A model generated the notes under the pieces. The model searched no databases and had not been told where the DNA came from. It saw nothing but the letters and a program-made list of their open reading frames with translations. Below, piece by piece: positions 4,918 through 22,303 of a DNA stretch of 27,939 nt. The translations under genes and the position numbers were made by a program. This DNA comes from a virus, in the IMG/VR virus record IMGVR_UViG_3300044643_001274, positions 1-27,939 of that record. One strand, given 5' to 3'. How positions within the stretch are numbered: the stretch's first letter is position 1; each line of letters opens with the position of its first letter.

Positions 4918-5130
4918 TTAGTTCCCCCACTCTAAGGGAGCCTCCGGTTCAGGCAGATGCGCCCAGTGCGTGATGTGAGAGTCGATGGGATCTCCGGTGT
5001 GGGCATTGACCCACTCACCTCCCTCGAAGATGGCAATGAAGTGAGCTTCCTGATCCCACGCCAAGACGCAGATCGGACGGTCAGGCTGGAACTCCGAGGG
5101 ATACCACTCGATGGGCTTCGGATTCTTCAT
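4918..5130 (-). CDS. DUF551-like small protein
   Basis: The gene encodes 70 residues beginning MKNPKPIEWYPSEFQPDRPI. The overall pattern is an N-terminal EWYP, then PICVLAWDQEAHFIAIFEGGEW, then a C-terminal ITHWAHLPEPEAP. It is that of DUF551, a short domain frequent in phage early regions (W...lP...vlv...a.y..g.W...thW..lPepP). Its biochemical role is not known to me. The ATG overlaps the preceding stop as TGATG, with GGAGG 7 nt upstream. Confidence 0.65.
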   Translation of the reverse strand: MKNPKPIEWYPSEFQPDRPICVLAWDQEAHFIAIFEGGEWVNAHTGDPIDSHITHWAHLPEPEAPLEWGN

Positions 5131-5570
5131 CAGATGGCCTCCGATTCCTTTGAGAGATACTCATTGATCTGGTTCCATTCCTCGACCATGGGCTTGAGGG
5201 CATCAGCGGCGCGCTTCAGGTATTCGACATTGCCCGTCTCGATGGCCACCTTCCATCGTTCCTTCAGGGCCGAGAAGACCTTCACGAGCCTGTCCGTGTC
5301 TGGGATGGGATCTGATTCCAGCGCGATCCGCTCCGAGACCTCGAAGCCCAGCTCCGTGATGATCTGGGCCTCGACGACCAGAGCCTTATGAAATCCCCAC
5401 TTCTTCTCGTAATGCTCCCTGGAAGCCCTCTTCGCCTTCCCTCCATATTTCTCAACGAAATAACCCCACTTCCAGACATCGATGACAACTTGCTCTGGAG
5501 TATTATCGGGGAAGCTAACCCCGGATGGAGTCAGTTGAACCCCATACTGATCATTAAGTGTTAGTTGCAT
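5130..5570 (-). CDS. Hypothetical early protein (146 aa)
   Basis: The start is the ATG at 5570, three nt after the upstream stop; a longer frame to 5672 lies inside the upstream gene. The peptide MQLTLNDQYGVQLTPSGVSF is followed by a charged helical body with YGGKAKRASREHYEKKWGFH (basic, near 42-61), a central acidic helix and a C-terminal helix ending LSKESEAI. No membrane segment or Cys is seen. The leader is A-rich (ACCAACAACAAAAACCAATA) with no Shine-Dalgarno, unlike its neighbours. A DNA-associated role is conceivable from the basic helix only. Confidence 0.6.
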   Translation of the reverse strand: MQLTLNDQYGVQLTPSGVSFPDNTPEQVVIDVWKWGYFVEKYGGKAKRASREHYEKKWGFHKALVVEAQIITELGFEVSERIALESDPIPDTDRLVKVFSALKERWKVAIETGNVEYLKRAADALKPMVEEWNQINEYLSKESEAI

Positions 5571-5572
5571 AT

Positions 5573-6151
5573 CTATTGGTTTTTGTTGTTGGTTTTCACT
5601 AATTTCATGAGCGCCTGTCGCCTTTCGCTCTCCGACAGCTTGTCGGGGTTTTTCTCCCTCCTGGTTGACCAACCTGCCTTGGCTGACGCCTTGTAGACCT
5701 TCGAGCTTTCCAGCATCTTCTGACCACGGGCGTGGATGCCGAACTCCTTCTCATTCTTCTTCACCCAGTGGCTCACATCGGCCTTTGTTTTGCCGATCTT
5801 CCTCCCGATCTCAGACAGGCTCATCCCACAGAGATCCCACTTCTGGCTCTGAAGCGCCCAGAGAAGCACGATCACCCGGACTCCAATGGCTTCGAGCGTC
5901 GCCGCTGACAGGCCAGAAGTCCCGGCAACCCCCTCCAGCATCCGCTTCAACTGGGAGGCCGCATCTGAGGAATGGATAGAATCAATATACTCCTCCAGAA
6001 ACTCCCGACTGTCTTCGGGCAGACTTTCCAAAATATGTCTCAGATCGATCTCCCTGATCGGGTCATAGGATGGATTGTATGGCTGACGAAGTGCCTCGAT
6101 GGAGTCATTGACCCATGCCCGGTCAGCAGCACATGGAGAAGCAGAGATCAT
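5573..6151 (-). CDS. HTH DNA-binding protein (192 aa)
   Basis: The start ATG at 6151 overlaps the preceding stop (ATGA). The N-terminal 100 residues are helical and acidic (HILESLPEDSREFLEEYIDS). A sigma-like or KorB-like helix-turn-helix sits near 110-132 (MSLSEIGRKIGKTKADVSHW). It is followed by a basic segment with KASAKAGWSTRREKNPDK. Such proteins bind specific DNA as regulators, origin-binding proteins or partition-like factors. Lying in the early cluster ahead of primase and helicase, an origin-binding or early regulatory role is plausible but not shown. Confidence 0.6.
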   Translation of the reverse strand: MISASPCAADRAWVNDSIEALRQPYNPSYDPIREIDLRHILESLPEDSREFLEEYIDSIHSSDAASQLKRMLEGVAGTSGLSAATLEAIGVRVIVLLWALQSQKWDLCGMSLSEIGRKIGKTKADVSHWVKKNEKEFGIHARGQKMLESSKVYKASAKAGWSTRREKNPDKLSESERRQALMKLVKTNNKNQ

Positions 6152-6435
6152 GGTTTTTTCAGGGCCTCCAGCTTCTTGAGTTGAGCGACCGCCGTCCGCG
6201 ACGCCTCCAAGCACCAAGAGATCTCATCGGGGGCGCAGATACCCGCAGCCACCGCCACATCCCCCTTCAGCAGATCCGAGGCCCCCAGCAGAGACTCCTG
6301 ACAGCAGTCACAGAGCTTCCACGGGTAGCTCTCCGAGCCGGTGGACTCATCGGTGACCGGCAGCCCGGCCACCCACTTCGCCGGGGCCGTGCAGAGGGGC
6401 ATCGTGCAGATGCCGAGCGAGTTGAGGTCATTCAT
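6148..6435 (-). CDS. Small Cys-rich, likely zinc-binding protein
   Basis: The gene encodes 95 residues. Cys10 and Cys15 (ICTMPLCTAPAKW) plus Cys42, Cys44 and Cys45 (WKLCDCCQ) give two knuckles able to bind zinc. The C-terminal half (about 48-95) is helical with an LKKLEALKKP end. The start overlaps the stop of the 25-residue membrane peptide gene (ATGA). No specific family is recognised; phage early zinc proteins often bind nucleic acid or host enzymes. Confidence 0.6.
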   Translation of the reverse strand: MNDLNSLGICTMPLCTAPAKWVAGLPVTDESTGSESYPWKLCDCCQESLLGASDLLKGDVAVAAGICAPDEISWCLEASRTAVAQLKKLEALKKP

Positions 6436-17839: not shown

Positions 17840-19855
17840 TTAGGAGAGTGCGTAGACGGGGAGTTTGTTATCGTGAATCGCCTTCACGATTTTGAAGATT
17901 TCGGAGAGTGAGTTGCTCTGCTCCTCTTGGGGTGATTTCTTGGCCTTGCCTTCAGATCCGGGGCCAGTGCCGCCGGGGCCTTCACCCTTGGCATTCTTCA
18001 GCTTGTCATTCACAAGCTTGTTGAAGTCATCCTCTGCTCTCTTGCGGAGTTCTGCACGAGATCCAGAGACACCTTCCTTCACATACTTGCTGAAGAGGTC
18101 ATCGATTGACTGCTGCCTAGATGCTCTGCTGTCGCCCCCGGTGTATGAAGAAAGATCGGATTGGACGGACTGGCTTGCGCGGGTCTCCATGCGCTGCTGG
18201 ATCTGGTCCCAGCTACTGCGGTTCCCGGTTGTGGCCTGCACGTAGTCCTCAGGGCGCAGAAGGGTCTTCATGGCCTCAGCCATTGCCTGCTCAGAAGTTA
18301 GCGCCCTAGAACTGGATGTCCCGCCGCGAATGGGCTTGGTGCTGAATTGTTCAGGAGTGTCGATAGGCCCGAGTCCCGTGGCCTCAAAGTTCTTTGATGG
18401 CATCTTTAAGCCTGACATCTCGGCAAGGCTTCCAGACTCCCCACCCTTGGACTTGAAGGTCGCGAAACTCTCGCTGACACCAACGAGGCTCTCCTCGTAT
18501 TTCTTCCCATTGGCGGCGATTGTGGCCGTCAGCTTCGCCATGCTCTCATGCTCAGAGACGATGCGCTCGCTCATGGACTGCACCTTCTCCTGCTGGGTGG
18601 CGACATCGAAATATCCGTCTGCGGTCTTGTAGACTGCCACGCCGGCGTCCATTGCGTTGGCCCCAATTTCAGCCCATGACTGAGCTGTCTTGTATGATGC
18701 CTCGCTGAACTGGTTGTGAACTTCCTTGAGCTGGATCAACCCATTCAGCACTCCCGGGAGATCCATCTTCATGGCCGAAATGGCAAGGTTCACCCATGCA
18801 TTGGCGGCAGATCCTGCCTCTAAAAACGCGGCCTTGAATGTCTGCCCGATGAACTTGCCAGCGTCGAGGAACCCGTTGTAGATGGAAACCATGACGGGGC
18901 CTCCGGAAGCAAAGGTGCCGCCAGCAAACTCGGCGACAACGGTGAAGGATGCCTGAAGGATCTTGACTATTTCGTTCCCGATCTTCATGGCCTCAAGCTT
19001 CACAAGCTCTGTTGCCACGGAGAGTGCCTGCTTGAAGTTCCCATCCAACAAACTGTCAGCAACGGCCTTAAGCGGAGCAGCGATGTCCTTGGTGACCTTC
19101 TGCCCGAAGCCTGCGGCATCGAAGTTCTTCACCAGATCGACGAATTCTTTCAGTCCTCCTTGGATGTTCACCAAGGCCCCAGCCGCAAACTCCATAAGCT
19201 TCTGACCAATGGCGGTGATGCCGTCTCCGAGATAGTCGAACGCAGCGGCATTCTCATTCATCACATTGGCGAAGCCTCCGACCTCACCCTCTGCCTGATT
19301 GATCGCTCCGGGGAGATCGGCGAAGAGGGCCAGCAGCCTGCCACCTTTCTTCCCGAAGATCTCCATGGCCGTGGCAGCGCGATCAGCCGGGTCAGGGATC
19401 TCGCTGATAGTCTTGGCAATCTTGGCGAACTGCTCGTCAGGAGAAAGCTTGAGAAGGTCACTTGAGAAAAGGCCGAGGCGATGAAGCTTGTCGGCAGATT
19501 CGCTCCCGGCATCCCCCGCCTCGATCAGGAACTTCTGCATCTTGTTGATGACACCCCCTAGATCATCGGCCTTCATGCCGTTGTTCTCAAAGGCCCGTTC
19601 CAGCAGGACGAGCTTGCCCACGGCGATCCCTGTCTGCTCTGAGAAATCGGCAAGCTGACCTCCCTTCTCCATCGCACCATGAAACGCGCCGATGGTGGCG
19701 GTGATGCTGACATAGCCAGCAGCCAGCCCGGCGAGCTTCCCGGCAATGGAGCCGAAGGTCTCGCCCATCTTCTGGCCCGCGGACTCGACCGACTTTAGGT
19801 CTCCCAAGACCTGATCCTTTCCAGAGGTTGCCAGTGATACGGTTACGTCTGCCAT
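17840..19855 (-). CDS. Tail tape measure protein
   Basis: The product has 671 residues. The N-terminus KDQVLGDLKSVESAGQKMGE, the GKLAGLAAGYVSITATIGAF segment and long helical stretches (EQTGIAVGKLVLLERAFENN) match tape measure proteins, which set tail length and pass through the tail during DNA ejection. A central hydrophobic stretch (about 300-365) and a Gly/Ser/Glu/Lys-rich disordered region (590-640) follow. The length suggests a short tail, about 100 nm if the usual 1.5 angstrom per residue holds. It lies directly downstream of the basic structural gene. Confidence 0.88.
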   Translation of the reverse strand: MADVTVSLATSGKDQVLGDLKSVESAGQKMGETFGSIAGKLAGLAAGYVSITATIGAFHGAMEKGGQLADFSEQTGIAVGKLVLLERAFENNGMKADDLGGVINKMQKFLIEAGDAGSESADKLHRLGLFSSDLLKLSPDEQFAKIAKTISEIPDPADRAATAMEIFGKKGGRLLALFADLPGAINQAEGEVGGFANVMNENAAAFDYLGDGITAIGQKLMEFAAGALVNIQGGLKEFVDLVKNFDAAGFGQKVTKDIAAPLKAVADSLLDGNFKQALSVATELVKLEAMKIGNEIVKILQASFTVVAEFAGGTFASGGPVMVSIYNGFLDAGKFIGQTFKAAFLEAGSAANAWVNLAISAMKMDLPGVLNGLIQLKEVHNQFSEASYKTAQSWAEIGANAMDAGVAVYKTADGYFDVATQQEKVQSMSERIVSEHESMAKLTATIAANGKKYEESLVGVSESFATFKSKGGESGSLAEMSGLKMPSKNFEATGLGPIDTPEQFSTKPIRGGTSSSRALTSEQAMAEAMKTLLRPEDYVQATTGNRSSWDQIQQRMETRASQSVQSDLSSYTGGDSRASRQQSIDDLFSKYVKEGVSGSRAELRKRAEDDFNKLVNDKLKNAKGEGPGGTGPGSEGKAKKSPQEEQSNSLSEIFKIVKAIHDNKLPVYALS

Positions 19856-19859
19856 AAAA

Positions 19860-20768
19860 TTAAGCCTGTTGTGGAACGACTTGCTGAAGCTTCATGGCCT
19901 CGCGGATTTCCTTCTTCATGGAGTTGAAAAACTTCTGGCGGGAGATCCTGATCGCCTCGGCATGGGCTGTCTTCCGGAGTGCCTTGTCGGCCCAAGGGAT
20001 CTTGCTGACCAACTTGATGTCAGGGGAGGACGCCTCGGCGTGGTCATGCACGGCGGCAGGAACCTTTTCCACATGGCGCTTGACCCAGAGAGGAATGCCT
20101 CGAAGGGCATCCTTAACATCGGCATTCACCTGAATGGCGCAGGCCGCCCATGCCGCCTTGGAGAGGCCCACCAACTTCTGCTTCTCCTTGATGTATTTCT
20201 CAAGATCCTTGGACCTGTAGACGACGTTCCTTGTCTTCCAACCTTTCCTGACCCTTCCGTAGTTGTTGCGGGTCTGCCTGTGAACGGATTTGTCCAAAGT
20301 CTCGTCAACCTTCAGCATGCTGAACCCGGGGGCCTGAGCCAAGAGAACGCGGAGGTCGGCGAGACCAAGCGCACGTGACTTCTTGGTGATCCTCTTCTGG
20401 GGCTTTCTACGGTTTTTGATCCGGTTCGCCATATCGATGGCAGACAAAATGGCATCGCGAAGCTTGAAGTCCCTAACAATGACCCGCCTGACGACATCGC
20501 GCAGAGATTGCTTCTGCCTATCGTGCTTCGTGGCAATCGGCGCGGCGGGCATGTAGGCGCGGAGGATGTCATTCTGGACCGCAATTTCGCCCAGCTTTTG
20601 AGATTCTGAGTTCTTCCCGTAAGGGGGCGTGGAATAGGCAAGATTCACCGCCAGAAGCCGGGCACCACGACGCATGGTCGCGGCGATCTGTTTGCCAGTA
20701 ACCTCCTGATAAAGCTCCATCTTCTTCTGGAGCTTTTGGTTATCAATCTGGACTTTTGGGGTTGCCAT
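19860..20768 (-). CDS. Basic structural or tail-assembly protein (302 aa)
   Basis: The start at ATG 20768 is supported by TTTGACA 17 nt upstream, although the frame stays open to 20813. The protein is strongly basic (KIKNRRKPQKRITKKSRALG, near 115-140) and mainly helical. The N-terminus (KMELYQEVTGKQIAATMRRG, ARLLAVNLAYSTPPYGKNSE) recalls the opening of HK97-gp10-like or other minor tail proteins. Between the tail chaperone and the tape measure, a tail-assembly or tape-measure-associated role is likely. The motif support is weak. Confidence 0.5.
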   Translation of the reverse strand: MATPKVQIDNQKLQKKMELYQEVTGKQIAATMRRGARLLAVNLAYSTPPYGKNSESQKLGEIAVQNDILRAYMPAAPIATKHDRQKQSLRDVVRRVIVRDFKLRDAILSAIDMANRIKNRRKPQKRITKKSRALGLADLRVLLAQAPGFSMLKVDETLDKSVHRQTRNNYGRVRKGWKTRNVVYRSKDLEKYIKEKQKLVGLSKAAWAACAIQVNADVKDALRGIPLWVKRHVEKVPAAVHDHAEASSPDIKLVSKIPWADKALRKTAHAEAIRISRQKFFNSMKKEIREAMKLQQVVPQQA

Positions 20769-20787: not shown

Positions 20788-20985
20788 TCAAAAATCCAGA
20801 TCCAGAAGGTCATCTGCCCATCTCAGCGGCCTGCCCGGTGTAGTTCCGTCCCCGGTCCAGACATGGTAGTCCAGAATCCGCATCCCCTCCGTGAAGGGCA
20901 ACTCCCACAAAATGTAGTCGTGACCCCAGCTTGTCTTTTCGGCCAGTCGGGCGACGTAACTCGTCAGCCAGCCCGGCCGCCAGCT
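20788..20985 (-). CDS. Tail chaperone extension reached by -1 frameshift (gpGT-like)
   Basis: In the -1 frame, after the slippery site, an open stretch of 65 residues follows (SWRPGWLTSYVARLAEKTSW, then GHDYILWELPFTEGMRILDY, then WADDLLDLDF) and ends at TGA 20788-20790. It has no start codon of its own at the beginning and reads like real protein; HDYILWELP is typical of phage tail-assembly extensions. The fusion with the first 152 residues of the upstream gene would be 217 aa. In lambda the gpG/gpGT ratio controls tail assembly, and this appears to be the counterpart. Confidence 0.75.
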   Translation of the reverse strand, partial: SWRPGWLTSYVARLAEKTSWGHDYILWELPFTEGMRILDYHVWTGDGTTPGRPLRWADDLLDLDF

Positions 20986-21440
20986 TTTGGGTCGGTCTCT
21001 CCACCGCCTGATGCCTCACCCTTCACGGCGGTCTTGCTCTTGTTCATCCGCTCGACGAGTTCGAGGATGCGTGGCGTGGCCTCGGCAAAGACATCAGCTT
21101 CGTAGGCGTCGAGGAAGTCATAGACGGCGGCGCGGAACTCCTGCGGTTTCTCCGAGAGCCGACGGACTGTCTCCTTGGGGGATGACTGGGAGAAGAGGAT
21201 CGCACCGACATCGAAGGCCACGGAGTTCATCCGACCGATGACCAGCCCGACGCCGCACTCGATGAGCAGGGCGAGGTCTCCCGCTGAGATCCTGCGGAGT
21301 TTGATCCCGGCAATCTCCTCGCCGCTGCGGAGGATATCCCGGTCGAGTTCCCGATTGCGCTCGGTGGTGTCGATCTCGTTCAGGTCAGCACCGAAGTCGT
21401 TGATGACTTCCTTGTCGTTGTGTTCGTTTTTGCTGTTCAT
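20964..21440 (-). CDS. Tail assembly chaperone, short form (gpG-like)
   Basis: The product has 158 residues. A polar N-terminus (MNSKNEHNDKEVINDFGADL) leads to a conserved-looking middle (IAGIKLRRISAGDLALLIEC, AVYDFLDAYEADVFAEATPR) and a low-complexity end (KGEASGGGETDPKAGGRAG). Position upstream of the tape measure and downstream of the tail-tube-like gene is that of gpG. The last codons contain the frameshift site. It would bind the tape measure and bring tube subunits to it. No Shine-Dalgarno is present before ATG 21440. Confidence 0.7.
   Translation of the reverse strand: MNSKNEHNDKEVINDFGADLNEIDTTERNRELDRDILRSGEEIAGIKLRRISAGDLALLIECGVGLVIGRMNSVAFDVGAILFSQSSPKETVRRLSEKPQEFRAAVYDFLDAYEADVFAEATPRILELVERMNKSKTAVKGEASGGGETDPKAGGRAG
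20985..20991 (-). promoter_or_regulatory. Programmed -1 frameshift site C CCA AAA
   Basis: The heptamer CCCAAAA lies in the required X XXY YYZ register of the short-form frame, seven codons before its stop. After slippage the P and A sites re-pair as CCC and AAA. The GC-rich sequence that follows (GCTGGCGGCCGGGCTGG) can fold and may stimulate slippage. Confidence 0.75.
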
Positions 21441-21445
21441 AAAGA

Positions 21446-21877
21446 TTAGCTGGCAAGCTGGGCGAGCCGTTGGCGCTCCTCGCGTCCGAGCCTCGGGGTG
21501 ACGGCAAGGCGCTTGTCGCCACGGTTGTGGAGCTTCTGGTTGGGAACCTTGTGACTCTCAGAGATGATATGAGTCCTTGAGAACATGGCCTCTCGCGCCA
21601 GCAGGAAGCAGATCATGTTCGAGGGGCGCATGAGGTTCTCTCCCATCGGGTTTTCCCAAGCACGCAGGAAATCGCTGATTGCCTCGCCGTCGCCGTTGCT
21701 GGTCTCAAAGTGCCAGGTGAAACTCTCGCGGCCCTGCGCGTCGGTGATTCGGGTGCACTCTGCATTGGCCTTAAATGCGAACCCTGCGCAGTGCAGGGAG
21801 ATGGCGAGCTTCATGTCGCTGGTGGAAAACCAGCCACCTTGCGCGGCATCCTCTTCGGGGATCTGTGGCTTGTTCAT
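21446..21877 (-). CDS. Hypothetical tail-region protein (143 aa)
   Basis: The peptide starts MNKPQIPEEDAAQGGWFSTS. An alpha/beta first half (MKLAISLHCAGFAFKANAEC, ESFTWHFETSNGDGEAISDF) is followed by a basic C-terminus (HNRGDKRLAVTPRLGREERQ). It lies between the tail-tube-like gene and the chaperone, a position often held by a small tail-assembly protein. Cys30 and Cys41 are present without a metal motif. No family is recognised. Confidence 0.55.
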   Translation of the reverse strand: MNKPQIPEEDAAQGGWFSTSDMKLAISLHCAGFAFKANAECTRITDAQGRESFTWHFETSNGDGEAISDFLRAWENPMGENLMRPSNMICFLLAREAMFSRTHIISESHKVPNQKLHNRGDKRLAVTPRLGREERQRLAQLAS

Positions 21878-21928: not shown

Positions 21929-22303
21929 TTAGACTCCGGTGATCAGCGGGTAGCGGCTTGCGGAGATGGAGATCTGTTTGAAGCCATCTGGCGTCTTGGA
22001 GATCTCGACGCTGTCAACGATGACCTGACCAACGGAGACGCCGCCGACTGCCTCGATATTTGCGAGGGTGAGTGCTGTCGCCACCGTTGCGGCAACAACT
22101 CCGGTTGTCCCGGCAACCGTCCCGGCGACTGCAATCGTGGACTTCGGGTTGTAGTAGGCAACGAGGCGAACTTCGCCATTGTTGTCCTTGACCTCCTGCT
22201 TGTCCTGGGAGGTGGAGATGGAGAACGAGGAGATGAGGATTCCGGTTTCGGCGGTGCAGCCGAAGGAGGTGCCAGTGGATGATCCGAGTAGGGTGACGGC
22301 CAT
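21929..22303 (-). CDS. Major tail tube-like protein (124 aa)
   Basis: The peptide starts MAVTLLGSSTGTSFGCTAET. It is Gly/Ser/Thr/Val-rich, beta-structured and free of long helices, ending QISISASRYPLITGV, consistent with a small tail-tube subunit. It sits between head-completion genes and the tail chaperone, the expected place. Its leader carries CCCAACCACC, shared with the major capsid gene, and TTTGACA 33 nt upstream. There is no Shine-Dalgarno. Assignment is by position and composition. Confidence 0.6.
   Translation of the reverse strand: MAVTLLGSSTGTSFGCTAETGILISSFSISTSQDKQEVKDNNGEVRLVAYYNPKSTIAVAGTVAGTTGVVAATVATALTLANIEAVGGVSVGQVIVDSVEISKTPDGFKQISISASRYPLITGV

Follow-up and report, generated by a model that had tools for sequence, protein, structure and literature searches.

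The sequence analysed here, which we call the window, is the whole stretch of 27,939 nucleotides, positions 1 to 27,939 of IMG/VR virus record IMGVR_UViG_3300044643_001274, and comes from an uncultivated phage. Its structural genes lie on the minus strand and comprise a terminase fragment, portal, head maturation protease, capsid protein, tail genes, tape measure and endolysin. The portal gene matches phrog_21 (E 4e-45), and a phage integrase gene is present on the plus strand. The locus of interest lies among the tail genes and contains the following features, in the direction of transcription:

21929..22303, minus strand: candidate major tail (tube) protein, 124 aa, from its position and its conservation in 15/15 close relatives
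21446..21877, minus strand: 143-aa conserved protein between the tail-tube candidate and G, with 59-100% identity among close relatives
20964..21440, minus strand: G, the 158-aa zero-frame product, a putative gpG-like tail assembly chaperone, from its open frame, homologues and conserved place
20985..20991, minus strand: slippery heptamer C_CCA_AAA, in register at G codons 151-152
20940..20979, minus strand: predicted stem-loop, candidate stimulator, starting 5 nt after the heptamer
20964..20966, minus strand: zero-frame stop TGA, six codons past the heptamer
20788..20985, minus strand: T, a 65-codon extension in the -1 frame plus its stop, from selection in that frame and a conserved core
19860..20768, minus strand: 302-aa gene separating T from the tape measure, its start taken from aligned starts in relatives
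17840..19855, minus strand: tape measure protein, 671 aa, matching PHROG tape-measure families (best E 2.7e-17)

The earlier note on this DNA had placed C CCA AAA in perfect register near the end of the 158-aa frame, followed by 65 sense codons in the -1 frame and giving a 217-aa fusion; these coordinates and counts proved exact, with the heptamer at 20991-20985 and the T stop (TGA) at 20790-20788 on the minus strand. The heptamer is the sole in-register X XXY YYZ within the 158-codon G frame. No ATG, GTG or TTG codon occurs in the T frame from the upstream stop at 21016 to at least T codon 22. Coding capacity and conservation support two co-N-terminal products, G and G-T.

All 15 close relatives retain the gene order of tail-tube candidate, 143-aa gene, G, T, a gene of ∼300 aa and tape measure, and a tape measure homologue was found in 12/12 relatives searched. 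G and T thus lie between the major tail protein gene, a candidate by position and conservation, and the tape measure. The claim that this is the placement of lambda gpG/gpGT upstream of the tape measure held for the order of the genes but not for direct adjacency, since the 302-aa gene intervenes. Likewise, T stops just before the next gene, as the note had claimed, if that gene begins at ATG 20768, 19 nt past the T stop, but not if it begins at the mechanically called ATG 20813, which lies inside T. From the aligned sequences the former is probably the true start, and the latter a likely mis-start. Family matches were found neither for the 124-aa tail-tube candidate nor for the 302-aa gene (searched as the longer ORF from 20813), and the 143-aa protein had no Pfam or PHROG match. 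The 143-aa protein is nevertheless conserved like structural genes, with the motif WFST..LKLA..L..AGF, and its counterparts in distant loci are ORFs of 131-153 aa that occupy the same place and have a similar start. In two relatives, L030 and L031 (5201-7150), the distance from the T stop to the tape measure is ∼1.95 kb compared with ∼0.9 kb usually, and an extra gene seems to have been inserted between them. Elsewhere in the window (5573-6217 and 5130-5672, minus strand) the upstream ORF carries an in-register AAACCCC 23 codons short of its end; the -1 frame past it runs on for 440 nt, which may be simply the next overlapping gene.

Taken alone, the window gives a suggestive rather than a decisive argument. 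With its base composition, an open run of 65 codons in a given frame has a chance probability of p = 0.11, and several other window genes have -1 runs past their stops longer than 65 codons. Of 6,997 positions, 11 carry an in-register heptamer, which gives p ∼0.02 for one within the ∼14-codon overlap. The pattern becomes decisive only through its relatives, since all of the 100 other contigs compared keep a heptamer at the junction.

Fifteen IMG/VR contigs encode close relatives of both the G and T frames. CCCAAAA is retained in 11 of these and lengthened to CCCAAAAAAA in the other 4, and the spacing from the heptamer run to the zero-frame stop is exactly six codons in the window as in each of the 15. 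G homologues show 44-99% identity in 11 close loci, and the conservation of T equals or exceeds that of G. The suggestion that the extension is protein-like was borne out by its pN/pS ratio, which is 0.28 in the -1 frame; read in either remaining frame, the same nucleotides give 1.00 and 1.73 and contain stops. The T extension is therefore under purifying selection, in the -1 frame only. Conservation in this frame has a sharp boundary: nothing is conserved upstream of the heptamer, and KSWRP.W, from the second heptamer codon on, is nearly invariant. Several loci have -1-frame stops 7 to 8 codons upstream of the heptamer. Together with the zero-frame stop these confine the shift to ∼14 codons, within which T has no start codon.

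Distant relatives were identified first via the two genes that precede G, and afterwards via a profile of T. The earlier note had named a lack of homologues spanning both frames as grounds for refutation; such homologues were found, with an unchanged frame offset and with a slippery heptamer where the frames meet. An in-register X XXY YYZ was present at the G-T junction, inside the overlap, in 100/100 contigs besides the window (15 close and 85 distant), and in every distant relative with a junction the heptamer sits exactly at the first T residues. The distant relatives share the T core K..xP.W...Y....A..T.W....I...LP...G. At least six heptamers occur across the family, namely CCCAAAA, CCCAAAC, AAAAAAA, GGGAAAA, AAAAAAC and GGGAAAC, the last in 65 of the 97 loci analysed. 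That the motif varies while its position and the frame offset stay fixed is as predicted by tandem slippage at the P site and A site. Such a range of heptamers within one family of homologous junctions is somewhat unusual. As separate observations from this survey, the commonest slip site of the wider family, GGGAAAC, is immediately followed by the zero-frame stop, and one scan gave 140 contig stretches, confirmed by tblastn, of a large uncultivated-phage family (with loci L100-L116 and L117-L196) that shares the chaperone. No phage relatives of G, of T or of two distant versions of T were detected in 50,697 phage records. The only match in a bacterial genome, an Anaerolineaceae MAG (L020), was rejected as a chance match in another frame of a thioredoxin-like gene.

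We also examined the RNA on either side of the heptamer. A stem-loop is predicted at the same place in the relatives examined, 5-7 nt downstream of the heptamer, which is exactly where the mean folding energy is lowest. Folding nine close sequences gave 92.6% of cells paired compared with ≤47% in slid controls, and one stem pair is changed on both sides. Among family representatives, 23/24 fold more stably than synonymous recodings that preserve the overlap, with mean z of -0.90 and -2.71 in two heptamer classes and values as extreme as about -4.6 to -5.2 in several distant representatives. The stem-loop of the window by itself is no stronger than its synonymous recodings (z -0.2 to -0.4), since much of the stem is already dictated by the overlap, which is GC-rich and codes in two frames. 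A downstream RNA structure at a spacing of 5-9 nt is thus found for the family, and for the window alone it is predicted but not significant. A single RNAalifold consensus of all 14 sequences was discarded, being weak and of a different structure; the partners of the 5' arm differ between clades, and for this reason folding was done per clade.

Upstream of the heptamer, GGTGGAG or GGGGAG occurs at ∼7-12 nt and looked enriched relative to other gene positions. We rejected it as a Shine-Dalgarno-like stimulator of the dnaX type because synonymous recodings of the linker pair as much or more (mean z +0.25); the stretch is wholly explained by the glycine-rich linker. Separately, most minus-strand genes of the window have no Shine-Dalgarno before their start (mean anti-SD pairing -1.6 kcal/mol), which hints that the host depends little on Shine-Dalgarno sequences.

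With low-efficiency motifs that end in AAC, the zero-frame stop immediately follows the heptamer, and the stem-loops lie further beyond the coding expectation. The association of heptamer class with the hairpin was not significant for raw energies (p 0.08) and reached p 0.001 for z-scores, a value to be read in the light of a null that fixes more sequence in one class and of a split that is largely clade against clade. Because of this uneven null and clade split, we keep the relation as a hypothesis. The family might trade the slipperiness of its motif against the strength of its stimulator and so hold the G:GT ratio constant, although we consider this rather unlikely.

Frameshifting to -1 in tail chaperones is textbook knowledge, and the features of lambda G/GT have been reviewed (PMC5009743). 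The arrangement described here resembles lambda gpG/gpGT in having a short chaperone frame before the tape measure, an X XXY YYZ near its end and a C-terminal extension in the -1 frame. It differs in that T is only 65 aa long, in the 302-aa gene preceding the tape measure, in that family searches revealed no similarity to lambda proteins, and in the heptamer itself. The slip sequence C CCA AAA is, as had been noted, not lambda's G GGA AAG, but it belongs to the efficient class V_VV.A_AA.R and gives >0.10% frameshifting in E. coli even when no stimulator is present (PMC4066793). Insertion sequences also make use of G_GGA_AAC and A_AAA_AAC despite the low efficiency of these motifs (PMC4066793), and GGGAAAC and AAAAAAC are also found in the g-t genes of haloarchaeal viruses (PMC5009743).

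Other phages offer partial parallels. With P2 gpE/gpE+E', for which the P2 record annotates a -1 frameshift, the locus shares the position before the tape measure, and G shows a weak local match around the motif LRxIxAGDL. Mu gp41 shows a weak local match at the same motif, but the Mu record annotates a -2 frameshift, unlike the shift here. In HK97 the frameshift pair gp13/gp14 is likewise separated from the tape measure by another gene; no sequence similarity to HK97 gp13 was detected. Burkholderia phage KL1 also has a frameshift pair, gp18/gp19, and an intervening gene before the tape measure, and its predicted slip site, GGGAAAC (PMC3483164), is the commonest heptamer of the wider family described here. 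In Lactobacillus phage BH1, CCCAAAA has been reported as a slippery sequence of the major head protein gene (PMC6950654), where it yields a capsid protein variant rather than a tail chaperone, and phage A2 is said to require a -1 frameshift in its major head gene (PMC5009743). In the literature searched, which was not exhaustive, we found no report of CCCAAAA in a tail chaperone.

Assignment to a known chaperone family gave little beyond these hints. None of the 6 records searched matched PF10109 (Phage_TAC_7) over the curated cut-off; one of the 12 members of the sequence set A2 matched at E 0.069, below the cut-off. A weak match to phrog_103, the family to which P2 gpE belongs, was obtained for the window (E 0.004) and for one relative (E 1.4e-4), but it is confined to a short local region around LRxIxAGDL and was not significant by hhalign. 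G is predicted to consist of a beta-hairpin and helices. AlphaFold models of G and T, of moderate confidence (pLDDT 69 and 72), returned no significant PDB match, and the best viral structure match for G was an uncharacterised phage protein (E 0.014). That G/T works like a gpG/gpGT pair is nonetheless well supported, since position, two co-N-terminal products and frameshift match those of lambda, P2 and HK97.

Three other readings of the extra frame were weighed against ribosomal frameshifting. T could be a small gene in its own right, translated without any frameshift through re-initiation close to the zero-frame stop, and its nature as an independent conserved domain and the GTG or TTG codon found in the T frame of some distant loci would fit this. 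The window, however, offers no such codon between 21016 and at least T codon 22, the overlap has no conserved start codon, the conservation of T starts at the heptamer rather than at any start, and the heptamer is in register in every relative; we therefore judge re-initiation very unlikely. The extra frame could instead arise by transcriptional realignment, with the polymerase rather than the ribosome slipping on a run of A. This is conceivable for the runs of 7 to 9 A in four relatives (L018, L019, L032 and L068), but the A-run is only four long in the window and in 11 close relatives, and GGGAAAC, with three A, serves in 65/97 of the loci analysed. A-runs as short as three or four are not known to support transcriptional slippage. 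What all the motifs have in common is tandem re-pairing at the P and A sites, and we give polymerase slippage an even smaller chance than re-initiation.

Finally, the overlapping frame could be fortuitous, or an error of sequencing or assembly could have shifted the frame within what is really one gene. This would accord with the open run and the heptamer of the window, both unremarkable when taken alone. The reading is refuted by the comparison with relatives, where the same junction recurs in 100 other contigs and purifying selection on T is confined to the -1 frame, and its probability is negligible. With these readings set aside, we are highly confident, on sequence evidence, that the gene encodes a lambda-type G/GT tail-assembly chaperone with -1 programmed ribosomal frameshifting.

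From these comparisons we infer the slippage itself, the frequency at which it occurs and the chaperone role. Most ribosomes would continue in the zero frame to the TGA at 20966-20964 and produce the 158-aa G. A minority would slip at C_CCA_AAA, where the P-site tRNA on CCA and the A-site tRNA on AAA would each move back one base, onto CCC and AAA, probably aided by the stem-loop starting 5 nt downstream. Reading on through a further 65 codons, these ribosomes would complete the GT fusion of 217 aa. On the lambda model, G, present in both products, would coat the tape measure protein and T would recruit tail-tube subunits, in a G:GT ratio set by the slip frequency.

As to annotation, the 65-codon T lacks its own start codon and would be overlooked by automatic gene callers, which may also place the start of the next gene too far upstream. 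The mechanism is ordinary and the chaperone lineage is new: a lineage without detectable relatives among sequenced phage isolates joins a classic recoding system. Its natural series of at least six heptamers bears on how a fixed protein ratio may persist as the slip motif changes.
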